Assembly: GCF_000235565.1 (NCBI RefSeq)
Contig: NC_017527.1
Coordinates: 434,001-498,000 of the forward strand
DNA: 64,000 nt
Source: Methanothrix harundinacea 6Ac
Lineage (GTDB): Archaea > Halobacteriota > Methanosarcinia > Methanotrichales > Methanotrichaceae
Direction of reading: 5' to 3'
The notes beneath the pieces are model-generated. The model was not told the origin of the DNA. It made no database searches and saw only the letters and a program-made list of their open reading frames with translations. The position numbers and the translations under genes were made by a program. Below are positions 7,286 through 33,288 of this stretch, piece after piece; the first letter of the stretch is position 1, and each line of letters begins with the position of its first letter.

Positions 7286-8098
7286 CTAGACATTTTCTAC
7301 TAAGCGGGATTTATTACGATAGTAGTCAAATAGCTCTCTGCCCCATTTGACCGCAGATTCTCCTATGCATATAAGATCGCAACTTAGGTCATAAGTGCCA
7401 TCAGATCTATAAGCCCCGAAATCTAGGATCTTTTCTGTAACTGTAAACGCAAGAGTAACGTATTCCTGAATCTCATAAAGTTTAAAATTACTCTTTTTCA
7501 TAAGATCTTTTATCAAATATTCATGGTCTCTGAAAATTACTTCTAATATCTCAGATGTCACAATCAGCTCTATCTCTGCATTATTGCGAACACAGTGGGC
7601 AATCACTTCAGCATACCCTGGGACAATTATCGGCGAAACACCCTGGATTCGATTAGATTTTTTCAGCTCGGCAATAAAATAATCCACAGTTTTTAAGAGT
7701 TCTGAAGAATCGGCTTCGATGATCTCTGACTTATACAGCCTGCCCATCTTCACTAGAAGTTCATCGGGTATTCCACTAATGTCATGATTCACCCAGAAAT
7801 CGCTATATTTTTCCATAACCAGGACGAAGTCGATTATCTCGGAGAGCATGGAGGCCTGCATCCTTCCTAGGTTCGTCAGTCCATACCCCTTCTCGGCCCT
7901 GGTCACCAGCTTCGACTTGATCATCTCCTTGATGGCGTGGAGGATCGTGGTATTTCTGATCCCCATCTCCTCCTCCAGATCGCTGGTGCTCTTGTTTCCC
8001 TCTTTAAGGAGGAGAAGGATCTCTGTTCTAACCTTGGAGCGCGTGAAGGACTTCAGGGACTCTTCCGCCATCTCGTACCTATCGGATGATCTGGCCAT
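7286..8098 (-). CDS. FilR1-like transcriptional regulator without receiver domain
   Basis: The 270 residues have an ArsR-type winged HTH (EEEMGIRNTTILHAIKEM, about residues 42-60) followed by the methanogen DUF1724/FilR1 middle domain, about residues 130-260. It is clearly related to the FilR1 gene at 27774: both share NTTILHAI, FW(V/L)NHDIS and the closing (C/Y)xGESAVxWG(R/M)ELF(D/E)YY. It ends where FilR1 goes on into its receiver domain, so it cannot be controlled by phosphorylation in the same way and may sense a ligand directly. It lies in the AT-rich accessory block. Its targets are unknown. Confidence 0.8.
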   Translation of the reverse strand: MARSSDRYEMAEESLKSFTRSKVRTEILLLLKEGNKSTSDLEEEMGIRNTTILHAIKEMIKSKLVTRAEKGYGLTNLGRMQASMLSEIIDFVLVMEKYSDFWVNHDISGIPDELLVKMGRLYKSEIIEADSSELLKTVDYFIAELKKSNRIQGVSPIIVPGYAEVIAHCVRNNAEIELIVTSEILEVIFRDHEYLIKDLMKKSNFKLYEIQEYVTLAFTVTEKILDFGAYRSDGTYDLSCDLICIGESAVKWGRELFDYYRNKSRLVENV

Positions 8099-27346: not shown

Positions 27347-27773
27347 GTCAGAACACCTGCCGGATCTATTCCCAAACTTCCTGATATACGTTTCCCATAT
27401 CGAAAAGGAGGTTGGCGGGGTCTCGCGGCCCCCCCCGGCCGGCGGAGGCAGTTTAGATCCGCCATATCGGGATCGATCGGGGCTTTATTCCCTGCCGCCG
27501 GCGGCATCCGGGGCGGCGGCCTGACCCCCGATATCCGCTTTCTTTTCGGTACGATGAGAACTTCAGAGCTTCTATCAGCATCGGGATCGTCGGAAGCTAC
27601 TTATACGGCGAAATCAAGGAAAAAACTCAAGCCGAGGAGATGGGCTCGCGAAATTGGAGGGTGGAGGCTGATATCAAGCCGATAACTGGGGAGTTGTTCC
27701 GTCGGATCGCGAATCGCTCCCGGCTTTCGTGGATCTACGCCATTTAGGCCCTTAAAATGAGGGGGACCTCAAC
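27347..27773. promoter_or_regulatory. Control region between metG and filR1
   Basis: No gene is seen in these 427 bases. TATA-like elements occur at 27600 (CTACTTATACGGC) and 27750 (CCCTTAAAATGAG). The plus-strand end holds the promoter and ribosome site (GAGGGGGACCTC) of filR1. The published Fil system controls its own genes, so binding sites for FilR1 may lie here, but no clear operator is visible by eye. Confidence 0.35.
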
Positions 27774-29114
27774 ATGGACGAAAGGGATATGGTCAAACGG
27801 GTGAAGGTATTCGCCAGCTCTGAGCTGAAGCTGAACATCTTGCTCTGTTTAAAATATCGAGAGATGGATGTTAACGACCTCCAGGGGGTCCTGGGAGGAA
27901 GGAATACCACAATTCTCCATGCCATAAGGGATATGACCGATGACTATCTGATCTCCAGGGGTCGGCAGGGATACAGGCTGACGAACCTGGGGAAGATCAG
28001 GGGCTGCGTCCTTGAGAGCCTGATGGGGGTCCTGGATGATCTCGAGGCCCGTCCCGATTTCTGGCTGAACCACGATATCAGCTCCATCCCTCCGGAGATG
28101 CTAGAAAGGCTGAGCATGCTCCGCCGGTCGGAGATGGTCTCCACAAACCCCGCCTCCCCCCTGGAGATCCACGAGAGGCTGGAGTCTCTGCTCTCCACCT
28201 CGAAGAAGATCTCCGCGATCCTCCCTCTATTGATATTTCCAAAGGACTCGAAGGTCTTCACGAACGCCCTCCGGAGGGGGTCCCGGGTGGATCTTTTGAT
28301 GACGGAGAAGATCGCAGGAAGCCTCCTCGACGACGGGAGCATCTCCGCCTACGAGGTGGAGAGGCTCCTCAAGTTCGAAAGCTTCAGGCTCAGGCTCATC
28401 GGTGAAGATCTCAAGCTCGCCCTCTTCGTCACTGAATCCTTCCTCTATCTGGGGCTCTATCGCCACGACGGAGTCTACGACGTGGGGACGGGGGCGATCT
28501 ATCTCGGAGAGTCCGCCGTCGCCTGGGGGATGGAGCTCTTCGAATACTACGCTCAGAGATCCCGGGAGCTGGATGAGGGGGACCTCACGAGGGTATTCCG
28601 ATCGAGCATTCAGCCGGAGGCGGAGGCTCCGCCTCTGGCCGGCGAAGACCCCGGAGCCTTCGACGTGATGATCGTCGAGGACGACCTCGGCCACGCCACC
28701 CTCATCCGCCGGATCTTCGAGGAGAGCAGCCCGAGATGGAGGGTCCATCACGCCAGCCAGCTCCAGGATGCCCTGAGGTGGATCGAGGAGAGCTATGGCC
28801 GACCGTTCCTGGTGGTGGCGGACTATCTCCTCCCGGACGGCTGCGGCCTAGACCTCGCGGGGAAGGCGGAGCGTCCCCTGGAGGTGGGCTTCCCCCTGAT
28901 AATCCTCACCGGATTCGGCTCCGAGAAGATAGCGGCTCAGGCCTTCAAGTCCGGGGCGATGGACTACGTCGTCAAGGAGGCAGATAGCATCCAGCGGCTT
29001 CCCGAGATCGCAGAAGAGGCCCTCCTCAGGTGGCGGGAGCTGAAGAGGCGGGCCGCCGGCGGGGAGGGCCACCCGAGCCCCCAGGAGGGGCAGGGCCTCC
29101 CCCTCAAGGTCTGA
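27774..29114 (+). CDS. filR1: FilR1: HTH + methanogenesis regulatory domain + receiver
   Basis: The 446-residue protein has a winged HTH (VLGGRNTTILHAIRDM, about residues 39-54), the DUF1724/FilR1 middle domain (about 130-262), and a C-terminal response-regulator receiver (about 297-420) with acidic pocket EDD 302-304, phospho-acceptor Asp350 (VVADYLLPDG), Thr379 and Lys401. This order is inverted from usual bacterial regulators and is that of FilR1 of Methanosaeta harundinacea, the DNA-binding output of the FilI system that affects methanogenesis genes and cell shape. It converges on filI with only 7 bases between stop codons. Confidence 0.88.
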   Translation: MDERDMVKRVKVFASSELKLNILLCLKYREMDVNDLQGVLGGRNTTILHAIRDMTDDYLISRGRQGYRLTNLGKIRGCVLESLMGVLDDLEARPDFWLNHDISSIPPEMLERLSMLRRSEMVSTNPASPLEIHERLESLLSTSKKISAILPLLIFPKDSKVFTNALRRGSRVDLLMTEKIAGSLLDDGSISAYEVERLLKFESFRLRLIGEDLKLALFVTESFLYLGLYRHDGVYDVGTGAIYLGESAVAWGMELFEYYAQRSRELDEGDLTRVFRSSIQPEAEAPPLAGEDPGAFDVMIVEDDLGHATLIRRIFEESSPRWRVHHASQLQDALRWIEESYGRPFLVVADYLLPDGCGLDLAGKAERPLEVGFPLIILTGFGSEKIAAQAFKSGAMDYVVKEADSIQRLPEIAEEALLRWRELKRRAAGGEGHPSPQEGQGLPLKV

Positions 29115-29121
29115 TCTGGCC

Positions 29122-31782
29122 TCAGGGGGTCGGGAGGGTGAAGAGGACGCAGGTCCCTCTCCCCTCCTCCGATTCGATCCAGATCCTCCCGCCGTGGACC
29201 TCTATTATTCTCCTCACTATGGCGAGGCCGACGCCGCTCCCCTCGGAGTCGGGGTCGATCTTGTAGAAGAGGCCGAAGACCTTCTCCCACTGGTCGGGGT
29301 CCATCCCGATACCGTTGTCCCTGACGAAGAAGACGGTCTCCTCTCCCTCAGGCCGCCATCCGACCTCTATCTCGGGATGGGGCCTGTCGCCCATGTACTT
29401 GATGCTGTTGTCGAGGAGGTTCGTCAGAGCCTCCTGGACCCTCAGCCTGTCCACCCTCACCCTGGGCCAGCCCTCGGCGAGGGAGACCTTGATACCCCTC
29501 GATCTCAGCTCCCCGGAGGCCTGGCTGAGGGCCTCGTGGACGATCTCTCCGAAGGAGCCCTCCTCCGGAGGGTTGACGACCCGGCCGACCCGGGAGAGGC
29601 TCAGGGTGTCCTTGAGGAGGTGGTCCATCTTGAGGACCGCCTCCTCGATCATCGCAAGGTCGATCTTGATCTTATCTCCGTCCAAGGCCGAGAGATCCTC
29701 CCGGAGGAAGCCGACGAACCCCTGGATGGTGACGAGGGGGGACCGAAGGTCGTGGGAGACGGTGTAGACGAACCTCTCCATCTCGGCGTTCTTCGCCTCC
29801 ACCTCGCCGATCCTCTCCTGGAGCTCCCCCTTCGCCCTGACCAGGTCCGCCCTCGTCCGGGACCGGATGAAAGCGCCGCCTATGGACCCCGCCGCCACCT
29901 GGAGGACCGATATCTCGCCGTTGCTCCAGAACCTCTCCCGGTGGCAGTCGTCGAAGCCGATGAACCCCCATAGCCGATCCTCGACGAAGATCGGGACGAT
30001 CAGGATGGAGACGATACCCTGGGGCGCAAGGTAAGCCCTCTCCGATTCGGGAAGGTCCTTGACGAGGCCTACATAAGGTCTCCCCCTCGATATAATCTCA
30101 TAAAAAGTGGATGAATCGGGGTGGTACGGGAGGCTCTGAAGGACGGGGTTATTTATCTGGGGCTCGACCTCTCCCTTCGTCCACTCGTAGCGCTGGCTCA
30201 TGAGGACCTCCCCATCTACGGTCTGGTTCTCGAAGATGTAGGCCCGGTCCGCCTCCACCGCCTCCCCCAGGAGCTGGAGGACGTCGATGATGATTTGGTC
30301 GATATCGTAGTTGACTAGGAGGGAGTAGGAGGCGGCGGCGGAGGCGGAGAGGAGCCTGTCCCTTTTCAGGAGTTCGACCCCAGCCTCCTTGATATCGGTG
30401 ATGTCTCTTGCGATCCCGCATATCCCCGTGACCTGGCCCCGGTCGTCCCTCAGGGGGACCTTGACGGCGTGGAAGGTCATTGAAGATCCGGCTCGGGTAT
30501 GGGCGGAGACCTCGCCGACGAACGGTTCTCCGGAGAGAACCCCGGCGTCTTTCTCCCGGATCCGAGCCGCCGTCTCGGCGCTGAAGAAGACCTCGTCCCT
30601 CTCTCCCAGCATCTTGGAGGCTGGCAGCTGAAATATCCTCTCCATGACGGGGTTGACGAGGACGTACCTGCTCTTCGGGTCTTTGATGAAGATGCAGTCA
30701 TGGGCGGTATCCACGATCGTCCTGAACCTCTTCTCGCTCATGGCGAGCTTCTGGTTGTAACTCTCGAGGTGGTCGAGCATCTCGTTGATCGACTCTGCGA
30801 GGGTGGCCAGCTCCGCCGGCCCCACCGTTGGGATCCGCGACCCTTGGCCTTTCTCCTGCTCCCGGATCGCCTCGACGGAGGAGGTGATGGTGGCCAGGGG
30901 CATAAGGATGGAGAGCTCCAGGAAGAGGAGGATCAGCCCCCCGAAGAGGAGGCTTGCAAGGAAGATCCCCACCACCTGCCGGCGGATCGTCTCCAGTCCC
31001 CTTGAGCGGATCTCCCTCGGGACCTGGGCCTCCAGGAGGACGGTGGGGTTACCGTATACATCATCGATCGTCTTGGTGGCGATGAGGGTATCTGAGTCCT
31101 CCTTAACGATGAGGAGGGAGGTTTTAGAGTTGGTACCCTCTGACTCCCCCACCGGGGCGGTGGCAGCCATCCTCAGGTCGATGCCGCTCAGCCTCGCAAG
31201 CCCTTCCGCCCTCGCCCCGTCCAGGCGCCTGCCGACGATGAAGGTCCCCGATATCGGCCCCTTCCAGTGGCTGTCGAGGATCGTGGTGGAGCTGACCAGA
31301 AGAAGCCCCTCCGGATCGGAGACGATCCCCGTAAGGCCGTCCTCCGGCGAGGAATGAGCTATCAGGGGGTCGTCCTTCGCGAGGCTCAGAAGCCGGCCGG
31401 GGGCTGGGACCTCCTCTCCCGTGGCGTGGTTGAAGGCCCTGGAGTAGAATAGGTTGCCGGAGCGGTCGTAGTAGATCATGAAGTCGACGTCGAGGCCGGA
31501 TAGGGTCCAGCTGTTCAGGTTATCCTGGATGTACTGATCGTTCTCGCCTATGACGAAGTCCCGGGTATCGTTCCAGTGCCCCCAGTCCTCCGCCGCCCTC
31601 TTGAGGGATGATAGGTCCTCCTGGAGGTAGAAGAGGGTGCCATCGACCTTCTGGTGGACGTAGGCCTCCTCCAGATCCGAGAGGGTCCCCATCATCATGT
31701 GGCACATGAAGGTGCTGCAGATGAGGGCGAGGACGAGGATCATCCCCCCGGTGAAGGCCAGGATGCTTCGGCGCAGCGTCAT
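29122..31782 (-). CDS. filI: FilI: membrane sensor histidine kinase / carboxyl-AHL signal protein
   Basis: The 886 residues read in order: transmembrane helix (about 8-30); extracellular CHASE4-type sensor (about 45-260, with DWGHWNDTRDFV); second helix (about 270-297); HAMP (299-345); PAS (352-465); GAF (485-645); HisKA with phospho-His677 in FVYTVSHDLRSPL; HATPase with N box around Asn792, G1 DNGIGM at 822-827 and G2 GSGVGLAI. In M. harundinacea FilI is reported to be needed for carboxylated acyl-homoserine lactones and also acts as a kinase for FilR1/FilR2. It follows filR2 on the same strand with a 37-base gap. Confidence 0.87.
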   Translation of the reverse strand: MTLRRSILAFTGGMILVLALICSTFMCHMMMGTLSDLEEAYVHQKVDGTLFYLQEDLSSLKRAAEDWGHWNDTRDFVIGENDQYIQDNLNSWTLSGLDVDFMIYYDRSGNLFYSRAFNHATGEEVPAPGRLLSLAKDDPLIAHSSPEDGLTGIVSDPEGLLLVSSTTILDSHWKGPISGTFIVGRRLDGARAEGLARLSGIDLRMAATAPVGESEGTNSKTSLLIVKEDSDTLIATKTIDDVYGNPTVLLEAQVPREIRSRGLETIRRQVVGIFLASLLFGGLILLFLELSILMPLATITSSVEAIREQEKGQGSRIPTVGPAELATLAESINEMLDHLESYNQKLAMSEKRFRTIVDTAHDCIFIKDPKSRYVLVNPVMERIFQLPASKMLGERDEVFFSAETAARIREKDAGVLSGEPFVGEVSAHTRAGSSMTFHAVKVPLRDDRGQVTGICGIARDITDIKEAGVELLKRDRLLSASAAASYSLLVNYDIDQIIIDVLQLLGEAVEADRAYIFENQTVDGEVLMSQRYEWTKGEVEPQINNPVLQSLPYHPDSSTFYEIISRGRPYVGLVKDLPESERAYLAPQGIVSILIVPIFVEDRLWGFIGFDDCHRERFWSNGEISVLQVAAGSIGGAFIRSRTRADLVRAKGELQERIGEVEAKNAEMERFVYTVSHDLRSPLVTIQGFVGFLREDLSALDGDKIKIDLAMIEEAVLKMDHLLKDTLSLSRVGRVVNPPEEGSFGEIVHEALSQASGELRSRGIKVSLAEGWPRVRVDRLRVQEALTNLLDNSIKYMGDRPHPEIEVGWRPEGEETVFFVRDNGIGMDPDQWEKVFGLFYKIDPDSEGSGVGLAIVRRIIEVHGGRIWIESEEGRGTCVLFTLPTP

Positions 31783-31819
31783 GGGTGAAGGCCTCGGTTT
31801 CGCTCACCTCTGGGGTCTT

Positions 31820-32287
31820 TCACGCGGGTCCGGGGGAGCGGTTCCATCCAAGCCAGTACTCTTTGATCTCCTCGACGGTCCGCTTCAGGTCCTCGAAGCT
31901 GAGGGGCTTGATGAGGTAGCTGTTGACGTGGTTGGAGTAGGCCCGCCGGAGGTCGTCGTCGCTGGTGGAGGTGGTGAGGACGACGACGGGGATCGCCCTC
32001 AGCCTCTCCGACCTCTTGATCTGAGATAGGACCTCGTGGCCGTCGACCTTAGGGAGCCGGAGGTCCAGGAGGACCATCCTCGGGAGGCTCCTCCCCCCCC
32101 CTTCGTGGAGGCGGAGGTAATCTAGGGCGGCCTTCCCATCCCTCAGCCACTCTATCCTCCCGGTGAAGCCGAGCCTTTCAAAGGCCCTCATGATAAGCAT
32201 CGCATGGGCGTTGTTGTCCTCTACGAGCAGTATGATGAAGGGGTCCTCTGCCTCTAGGACGTCTCCGGAATCCAGGCCGTAGCTCAC
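31820..32287 (-). CDS. filR2: FilR2: single-domain receiver (Rcp1-like)
   Basis: The 155-residue protein is a stand-alone CheY-type receiver with acidic pair Glu23/Asp24 (LVEDNNAHA), phospho-acceptor Asp75 (MVLLDLRLPKVDG), Thr105 and the conserved Lys in SYLIKPLSF. There is no output domain, as in FilR2 of M. harundinacea. It sits directly upstream of filI and is probably cotranscribed with it. It may act as a phosphate sink or act on a partner protein; it may also compete with FilR1 for phosphate from FilI, which is inference. Confidence 0.87.
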   Translation of the reverse strand: MSYGLDSGDVLEAEDPFIILLVEDNNAHAMLIMRAFERLGFTGRIEWLRDGKAALDYLRLHEGGGRSLPRMVLLDLRLPKVDGHEVLSQIKRSERLRAIPVVVLTTSTSDDDLRRAYSNHVNSYLIKPLSFEDLKRTVEEIKEYWLGWNRSPGPA

Positions 32288-32377
32288 TTCCTTTCAACCT
32301 CCTCCAAAACGAGATTGTCTCTCCGTCCACTGGGTGATGAAGGCCTCGCACCTGCCTTACTGTCATCCGTCCGTGGT

Positions 32378-32527
32378 TTATGAAGATAACCCTCCGAGTA
32401 TAACGAATAATTGTCCATCGCGGGTGGGGAACCGGTGACGACGATCCGCCTCCTCAGATGGTTCCATCGATGAGATCCATCGGAGATCTTCGGAGGGAGG
32501 GATCTTCAACGATAATTCTGGTTTCAT
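32378..32527 (-). CDS. Possible 49-aa ORF coupled to the ferredoxin gene
   Basis: An ATG overlaps the stop codon of the NapH-like gene as ATGA and opens 49 codons (MKPELSLKIPPSEDLRW start). The sequence is charged with no motif. The coupling is like that of true genes in this window, but the composition is weak and no homologue is recognised. The rest of the 32288-32523 gap holds only the filR2 upstream region. Confidence 0.25.
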   Translation of the reverse strand: MKPELSLKIPPSEDLRWISSMEPSEEADRRHRFPTRDGQLFVILGGLSS

Positions 32528-33288
32528 CTTTCCATCTGTAAATTGCCCCGTTCCCACAAAGAATAGTGGATAACCCCCTTCGGGCAGGCGTCGACGCAGC
32601 CGCCGCAGAGTATGCACTCGGCGTCCTCCATCCGCCTCCGCTGGACCATATCCAACACATCCAGCCCCATGGGGCAGGTCGTGGAGCACCTACCGCAGCC
32701 GGTGCACCGGTCCCCATCAGCGAAGAGGCGAAGCGCCGGCCACCGGAAGAGGTTCCGTATCTTCCTGCCGATGATCATGATCACCGCGATCGGGCAGAAG
32801 TAATGACAGAAGCCACGTCTTCCTGCGGCTATGGCGAAGATGGTGATAAAGGTGATCTGGGCATAGAATATGGTGTATGCTCCCTCTTTCGCGATCGAGA
32901 TGCCATGATCGGTGTAATAAAATGGGTCGATGGCTGTAAACCCTCCGGCGGAGTGGACTGCAAGGATGAGGGGGGCAAAGAGCAGAAGGAATATCAGGTA
33001 TTTGAGCCAGTTCAGCCGGACGCGGTTGGTCTTTCTATCATTAATCTGAAAGTAGATCTCCTGTAAGCCACCTGCGGGGCAGAGCCACCCGCACCAGAGC
33101 CGTCCCAAAAATAGCGAGCTGATGAATATGAGGATGAAGACCATCAGCCCTCCGGTGACGATCCCCTCCGATGCTCCTCGAGTTATTATTGGGCAAGATA
33201 TATAAACAAATGTTATGGGCATCAATACGAAGGATAATATGATCAACGCCTTCCGGAGCCTCTGCCTATCGTTTATGATATTTTTCAT
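32524..33288 (-). CDS. NapH-like membrane 4Fe-4S ferredoxin
   Basis: The 254-residue protein has about four to five hydrophobic helices, the motif CGWLCPAGGLQE in a first loop, a second FCHYFCPIAV near residue 160, and a C-terminal 2x[4Fe-4S] ferredoxin with CTGCGRCSTTCPMG and CILCGGCVDACPKG. This is the layout of NapH/CcoG/RnfB-like membrane polyferredoxins that pass electrons across or along the membrane. The partner redox enzyme is not in the window. It is transcribed alone or with the small coupled ORF. Substrate and electron donor are unknown. Confidence 0.8.
   Translation of the reverse strand: MKNIINDRQRLRKALIILSFVLMPITFVYISCPIITRGASEGIVTGGLMVFILIFISSLFLGRLWCGWLCPAGGLQEIYFQINDRKTNRVRLNWLKYLIFLLLFAPLILAVHSAGGFTAIDPFYYTDHGISIAKEGAYTIFYAQITFITIFAIAAGRRGFCHYFCPIAVIMIIGRKIRNLFRWPALRLFADGDRCTGCGRCSTTCPMGLDVLDMVQRRRMEDAECILCGGCVDACPKGVIHYSLWERGNLQMER

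Follow-up and report, generated by a model that had tools for sequence, protein, structure and literature searches.

The Fil locus in this stretch of DNA is the published filI/filR1/filR2 system of the methanogenic archaeon Methanosaeta (Methanothrix) harundinacea 6Ac, from the same strain and not from a relative, and FilI is very probably the membrane histidine kinase of that two-component system, not a LuxI-type synthase of acyl-homoserine lactones (AHLs). The window that we analysed has 64,000 nucleotides and corresponds to bases 434,001-498,000 of the 6Ac chromosome. The original prediction placed a complete Fil locus at 27774-32287, with filR1 converging on filI across 7 bases and filR2 upstream of filI. 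Open reading frames are found at exactly those coordinates and in that order (Table 1), and the match to the published system that had been proposed is one of identity, as the genes are Mhar_0445, Mhar_0446 and Mhar_0447. The Fil system is thus already known, and both its phosphorelay and the DNA binding of FilR1 were demonstrated earlier by others.

Table 1. Features of the Fil locus and of related loci. Coordinates are those of the window unless another locus is named.
Feature	Coordinates	Strand	Description
filR1 (Mhar_0445)	27774-29114	+	446 aa; ORF and Pfam, PMC3991700
filI (Mhar_0446)	29122-31782	-	886 aa, membrane histidine kinase; ORF and Pfam, PMC3991700
filR2 (Mhar_0447)	31820-32287	-	155 aa, GTG start, stand-alone REC
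metG-filR1 upstream region	27347-27773		427 bases, common to divergent metG (-) and filR1 (+)
TATA-like element upstream of filR1	27592-27606	+	GGAAGCTACTTATAC here, AGCAAATTACTTAAAT in congeners; conserved
wHTH of filR1	27798-28031	+	Pfam
FilR1_middle (PF08350) of filR1	28158-28556	+	Pfam
REC of filR1	28665-28988	+	Pfam; putative phosphate acceptor D350
CHASE4 of filI	31168-31626	-	Pfam
Kinase core (HisKA-HATPase) of filI	29128-29781	-	Pfam; putative phospho-acceptor H677
Deletion junction	L119 2705-3320 (G003); L120 1058-1672 (G007)		equivalent to about 27600-32868 of the window
Fil-like modules, other genera	L078 4562-7765; L076 2955-7227

The filR1 and filI genes end tail to tail, with 7 bases (29115-29121) between their stop codons, filR2 and filI are 37 bases apart, and a ferredoxin gene, whole in 6Ac, adjoins the locus beyond filR2. 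In PMC3991700, filR2 is co-transcribed with filI, and filR1 is called "divergently transcribed" from the filR2-filI operon. The word "divergently" does not fit the sequence, in which filR1 (+) and filI (-) converge; the gene from which filR1 diverges is metG instead. The conserved TATA-like element in the region between metG and filR1 is a putative core promoter of filR1. We also looked for a FilR1 operator by aligning the upstream regions of filR1 and filR2 and listing their inverted repeats. No convincing palindrome is shared between the two regions, and the only element that stands out in the alignment is the TATA-like core element.

Pfam recovers the domains that the original prediction had read from the sequence: CHASE4, HAMP, PAS, GAF and kinase domains in FilI, a DNA-binding FilR1 and a receiver-only FilR2. 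FilI has CHASE4 at residues 53-205, PAS at 352-463, GAF at 493-637, HisKA at 668-732 and HATPase_c at 778-885, with a HAMP domain at 292-340 that scores 24.5 bits, marginally under the 25-bit cut-off. FilR1 begins with a weak match to the HVO_A0261_N winged helix-turn-helix (PF25213, residues 9-86, 24 bits, cut-off 35), followed by FilR1_middle (PF08350) at 129-261 and a receiver domain at 298-405, and the only Pfam domain of FilR2 is the receiver. The kinase residues are in place in FilI (H677 in the H-box, N788/N792, D822-G824-G826 and the G848/G850/G852 loop), and so are the receiver residues, D350/T379/K401 in FilR1 and D75 plus the T and the K in FilR2. The catalytic residues of FilI and FilR1 are invariant across the orthologues compared. 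Hydropathy finds two hydrophobic segments in FilI, at 7-25 and 270-288, that flank CHASE4. From this predicted topology, CHASE4 would face outward, away from cytosolic SAM. The nearest relative of this domain in the PDB is 9p50, a solved diguanylate-cyclase chain. When FilI is compared among congeners, its best kept domains are HisKA and GAF (mean identity 80% and 76%), and CHASE4 (55%) is the least kept of those named, a pattern to be expected when the sensor of a kinase is adapting.

Structure prediction agrees with this description. The AlphaFold model of FilI is weak (mean pLDDT 59.6, pTM 0.31). Its best 50 listed fold matches in the PDB are histidine kinases, phytochromes and related sensor proteins, and no acyltransferase appears among those 50. 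These matches support the domain reading, short of proof at such model confidence. The AlphaFold model of FilR1 (mean pLDDT 47) was too poor and was rejected.

These observations can be placed on what has been measured in 6Ac. Li et al. (2014, PMC3991700) showed that FilI autophosphorylates and then transfers phosphate to FilR1 and FilR2. Their work, which included ChIP, EMSA and reporter activation, also showed that FilR1 binds its own promoter, that of filR2-filI and those of acs1, acs4, mtr, fwd and omp. The strain has no genetic system for knock-outs (PMC3991700). In the mechanism that we propose, CHASE4, predicted to lie outside, and the cytoplasmic PAS and GAF domains would sense a signal and set the kinase activity of FilI. 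FilI would phosphorylate itself at H677, and the phosphate would pass to D350 of FilR1 and D75 of FilR2, the putative acceptors. Phosphorylated FilR1 would then bind and activate its own promoter, that of filR2-filI and those of genes that lead from acetate to methane, in line with the binding and activation that Li et al. demonstrated. FilR2 carries no output domain; it may compete for phosphate or modulate FilR1, and probably tunes the flow.

The signal is a different matter. The original prediction described an AHL-type signal, and such a signal has been reported by one group; the sequence lends it no support, and a 2019 review lists Fil among two-component systems with the entry "unknown stimuli" (PMC6944256). 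A recombinant FilI is reported by its discoverers, as quoted in PMC3991700, to have carboxyl-AHL synthase activity, and the same paper quotes 39.6% identity between FilI and a member of the LuxI family. We looked for that relationship in several ways. The Pfam family of LuxI-type synthases (PF00765) has no match in FilI, none in any frame of the whole 6Ac genome, and none above cut-off in the genomes of 36 relatives (0/36); the positive control, LuxI, matches it at 4e-35. We then built an AHL-synthase profile from eight synthases, LuxI and seven others encoded on bacterial plasmids, and used it without any filter to score six FilI orthologues together with 500 shuffled FilI sequences. A single one of the six FilI proteins is reported, with a negative score and ranking 94th among the shuffles. 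In pairwise BLAST of AHL synthases against FilI the matches are short and insignificant, with a best E of 0.058 and at most 50% identity over 18 residues, and they are no stronger than those against shuffled FilI. As FilI is no closer to the synthases than its shuffles are, an identity of 39.6% does not speak for homology unless its length and significance are given. The domains assigned in FilI also leave no uncovered segment of the length of a LuxI fold. A 2017 InterPro survey had found LuxR-type DNA-binding domains in archaeal proteins and no LuxI domain (PMC5413776). We conclude that FilI most likely does not belong to the LuxI-type AHL synthases, and the absence of a visible LuxI-like fold, which the original prediction had remarked on, is borne out by the family, profile and shuffle tests.

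We also searched for other parts of an AHL pathway. The LuxM/AinS-type synthase family (PF17327) has no match in the 6Ac genome, and as the control genomes give none either, this search carries no information. The acyl carrier protein domain (PF00550) has no match in the 6Ac genome, with control matches in 11 genomes, Methanosarcina acetivorans among them. The lack of a detectable PF00550 domain bears on any AHL synthesis in 6Ac that depends on acyl-ACP. AHL synthases that use acyl-CoA need no acyl carrier protein.

FilI could still be bifunctional, a kinase whose N-terminal, CHASE4-bearing part makes carboxyl-AHLs by a fold other than that of LuxI. The synthase activity is reported in PMC3991700 for recombinant His-tagged FilI, and the authors presume the N-terminal fragment to be responsible; sequence tests of the kind used here do not disprove an enzyme activity of non-homologous origin. 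We nevertheless regard a bifunctional FilI as very improbable. The similarity to LuxI does not rise above that of shuffled sequence, the N-terminal part is a CHASE4 sensor set between two hydrophobic segments and predicted to lie away from the cytosolic SAM, no stretch of the size of a LuxI fold is free of assigned domains, and the genome lacks an acyl carrier protein domain (which a synthase using acyl-CoA would not need). If FilI were bifunctional, it would be an AHL synthase with a fold new to this activity, in an archaeon with no detectable acyl carrier protein.

A reading that we consider unlikely, though less so, makes FilI a receptor that senses AHLs or a similar carboxylated molecule through CHASE4, with the density signal made elsewhere. 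CHASE4 is a family of extracytoplasmic sensors, with 9p50 as the nearest solved relative, and earlier work, cited in PMC3991700, reports a response of 6Ac to carboxyl-AHLs. The direct assay speaks against it, as autophosphorylation of FilI and phosphotransfer changed only very weakly when the carboxyl-AHLs were added (PMC3991700); the assay was run on purified protein, which may have lost the sensing that depends on the membrane. The kinase reading, in which the signal is left unspecified, is the one that we retain; by sequence alone FilI fits an ordinary sensor kinase, with no support for a LuxI-type signal maker.

In the genus, FilI is found, full-length or nearly so, beside FilR1 and metG in six of the eight congeneric genomes (G001, G002, G004, G005, G006 and G008). 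Gene order is the same and the Fil proteins are 55-87% identical to those of 6Ac, an agreement that on sequence comparison is far beyond chance. Unrelated best matches and a lack of synteny in Methanotrichaceae had been named as grounds for giving up the original prediction; what we find is a syntenic cassette in these six congeners. The ferredoxin gene lies beyond the cassette in five of the six and has no match nearby in G004. Some cassettes are altered. The filR1 gene of G004 is in two frames, as is filI of G008 (L075 8537-11178), whose sensor half is 41% identical versus 70% for the cytoplasmic half; both may be assembly errors, and the G008 case may also be a frameshift. In G005, filI and filR1 are intact and filR2 survives only as remnants (L074 6697-7363), with the C-terminal 26 residues 62% identical, so that FilR2 may be dispensable in that genome unless this is again an assembly error. 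Outside the genus, no full-length FilI was found in the 28 further Methanotrichaceae genomes searched, G023 included.

The two remaining congeners, G003 and G007, lack all three fil genes. In both, metG and the ferredoxin gene are separated by about 200 bases. The ferredoxin gene breaks off at codon 140 and is joined there to what is left of the region between metG and filR1, at the conserved, putative promoter box of filR1 (GCAAATTACTTAT). The junction is identical in the two genomes, and the ferredoxin gene is whole in 6Ac and congeners and nearly whole (residues 8-244) in the more distant G022. Because the two genomes share the junction and the gene is whole elsewhere, the loss appears secondary, and the simplest reading is a single deletion in a cassette-bearing common ancestor of G003 and G007.

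Beyond the known system, the analysis adds a test for homology between FilI and LuxI, with a negative outcome, and a deletion scar that points to natural cassette-free relatives for comparison. According to a 2025 paper, filI alone among archaeal genes has an empirical link to a quorum-sensing pathway (PMC12240190), and the synthase question therefore matters for the field of archaeal signalling. The ordinary sensor-kinase sequence of FilI turns the synthase claim into a question that is specific and can be tested. The limited distribution and secondary loss of the cassette also advise caution in speaking of "Methanothrix quorum sensing" in general.

Compared with known systems, LuxI-type AHL synthases (PF00765) have in common with FilI only the reported class of product, AHLs, with no detectable sequence similarity and no match to the family profile. 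The published Fil system (Li et al. 2014, PMC3991700) is the same as the locus described here in the lengths of FilI (886 aa) and FilR1 (446 aa), in the 37-bp gap between filR2 and filI, in its domains and in the neighbouring ferredoxin gene. The receiver domains of FilR1 and FilR2, given as 48% similar in that paper, are here 28.6% identical with 48.6% positives. The sole difference is the wording on the direction of filR1, and there is no difference in sequence. Two other genera of Methanotrichaceae carry Fil-like modules (L076 and L078) with a FilI-like kinase core (50-61% identical), and with a FilR2-like receiver (about 50%) and a FilR1-like receiver (51-65%) side by side. These modules differ from Fil in their sensors, which are 7TM or REC-PAS arrays, and in the FilR1-like receiver, which is fused to about 130 residues without a convincing Pfam match instead of to a DNA-binding part. 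One-component regulators with the PF08350 domain, common in Methanotrichaceae, show the opposite arrangement: a winged helix-turn-helix and FilR1_middle, 33-39% identical to residues 8-268 of FilR1 across the family, and no receiver. The window itself holds one of them about 20 kb from the locus, at 7286-8098 (-), a FilR1 paralogue of 270 aa with an HVO_A0261_N wHTH and FilR1_middle, without REC, 37% identical to residues 8-267 of FilR1. Since FilR1-like receivers without the DNA-binding part and FilR1-like regulators without the receiver both occur, FilR1 looks like a fusion of a FilR1_middle one-component regulator with a receiver domain.
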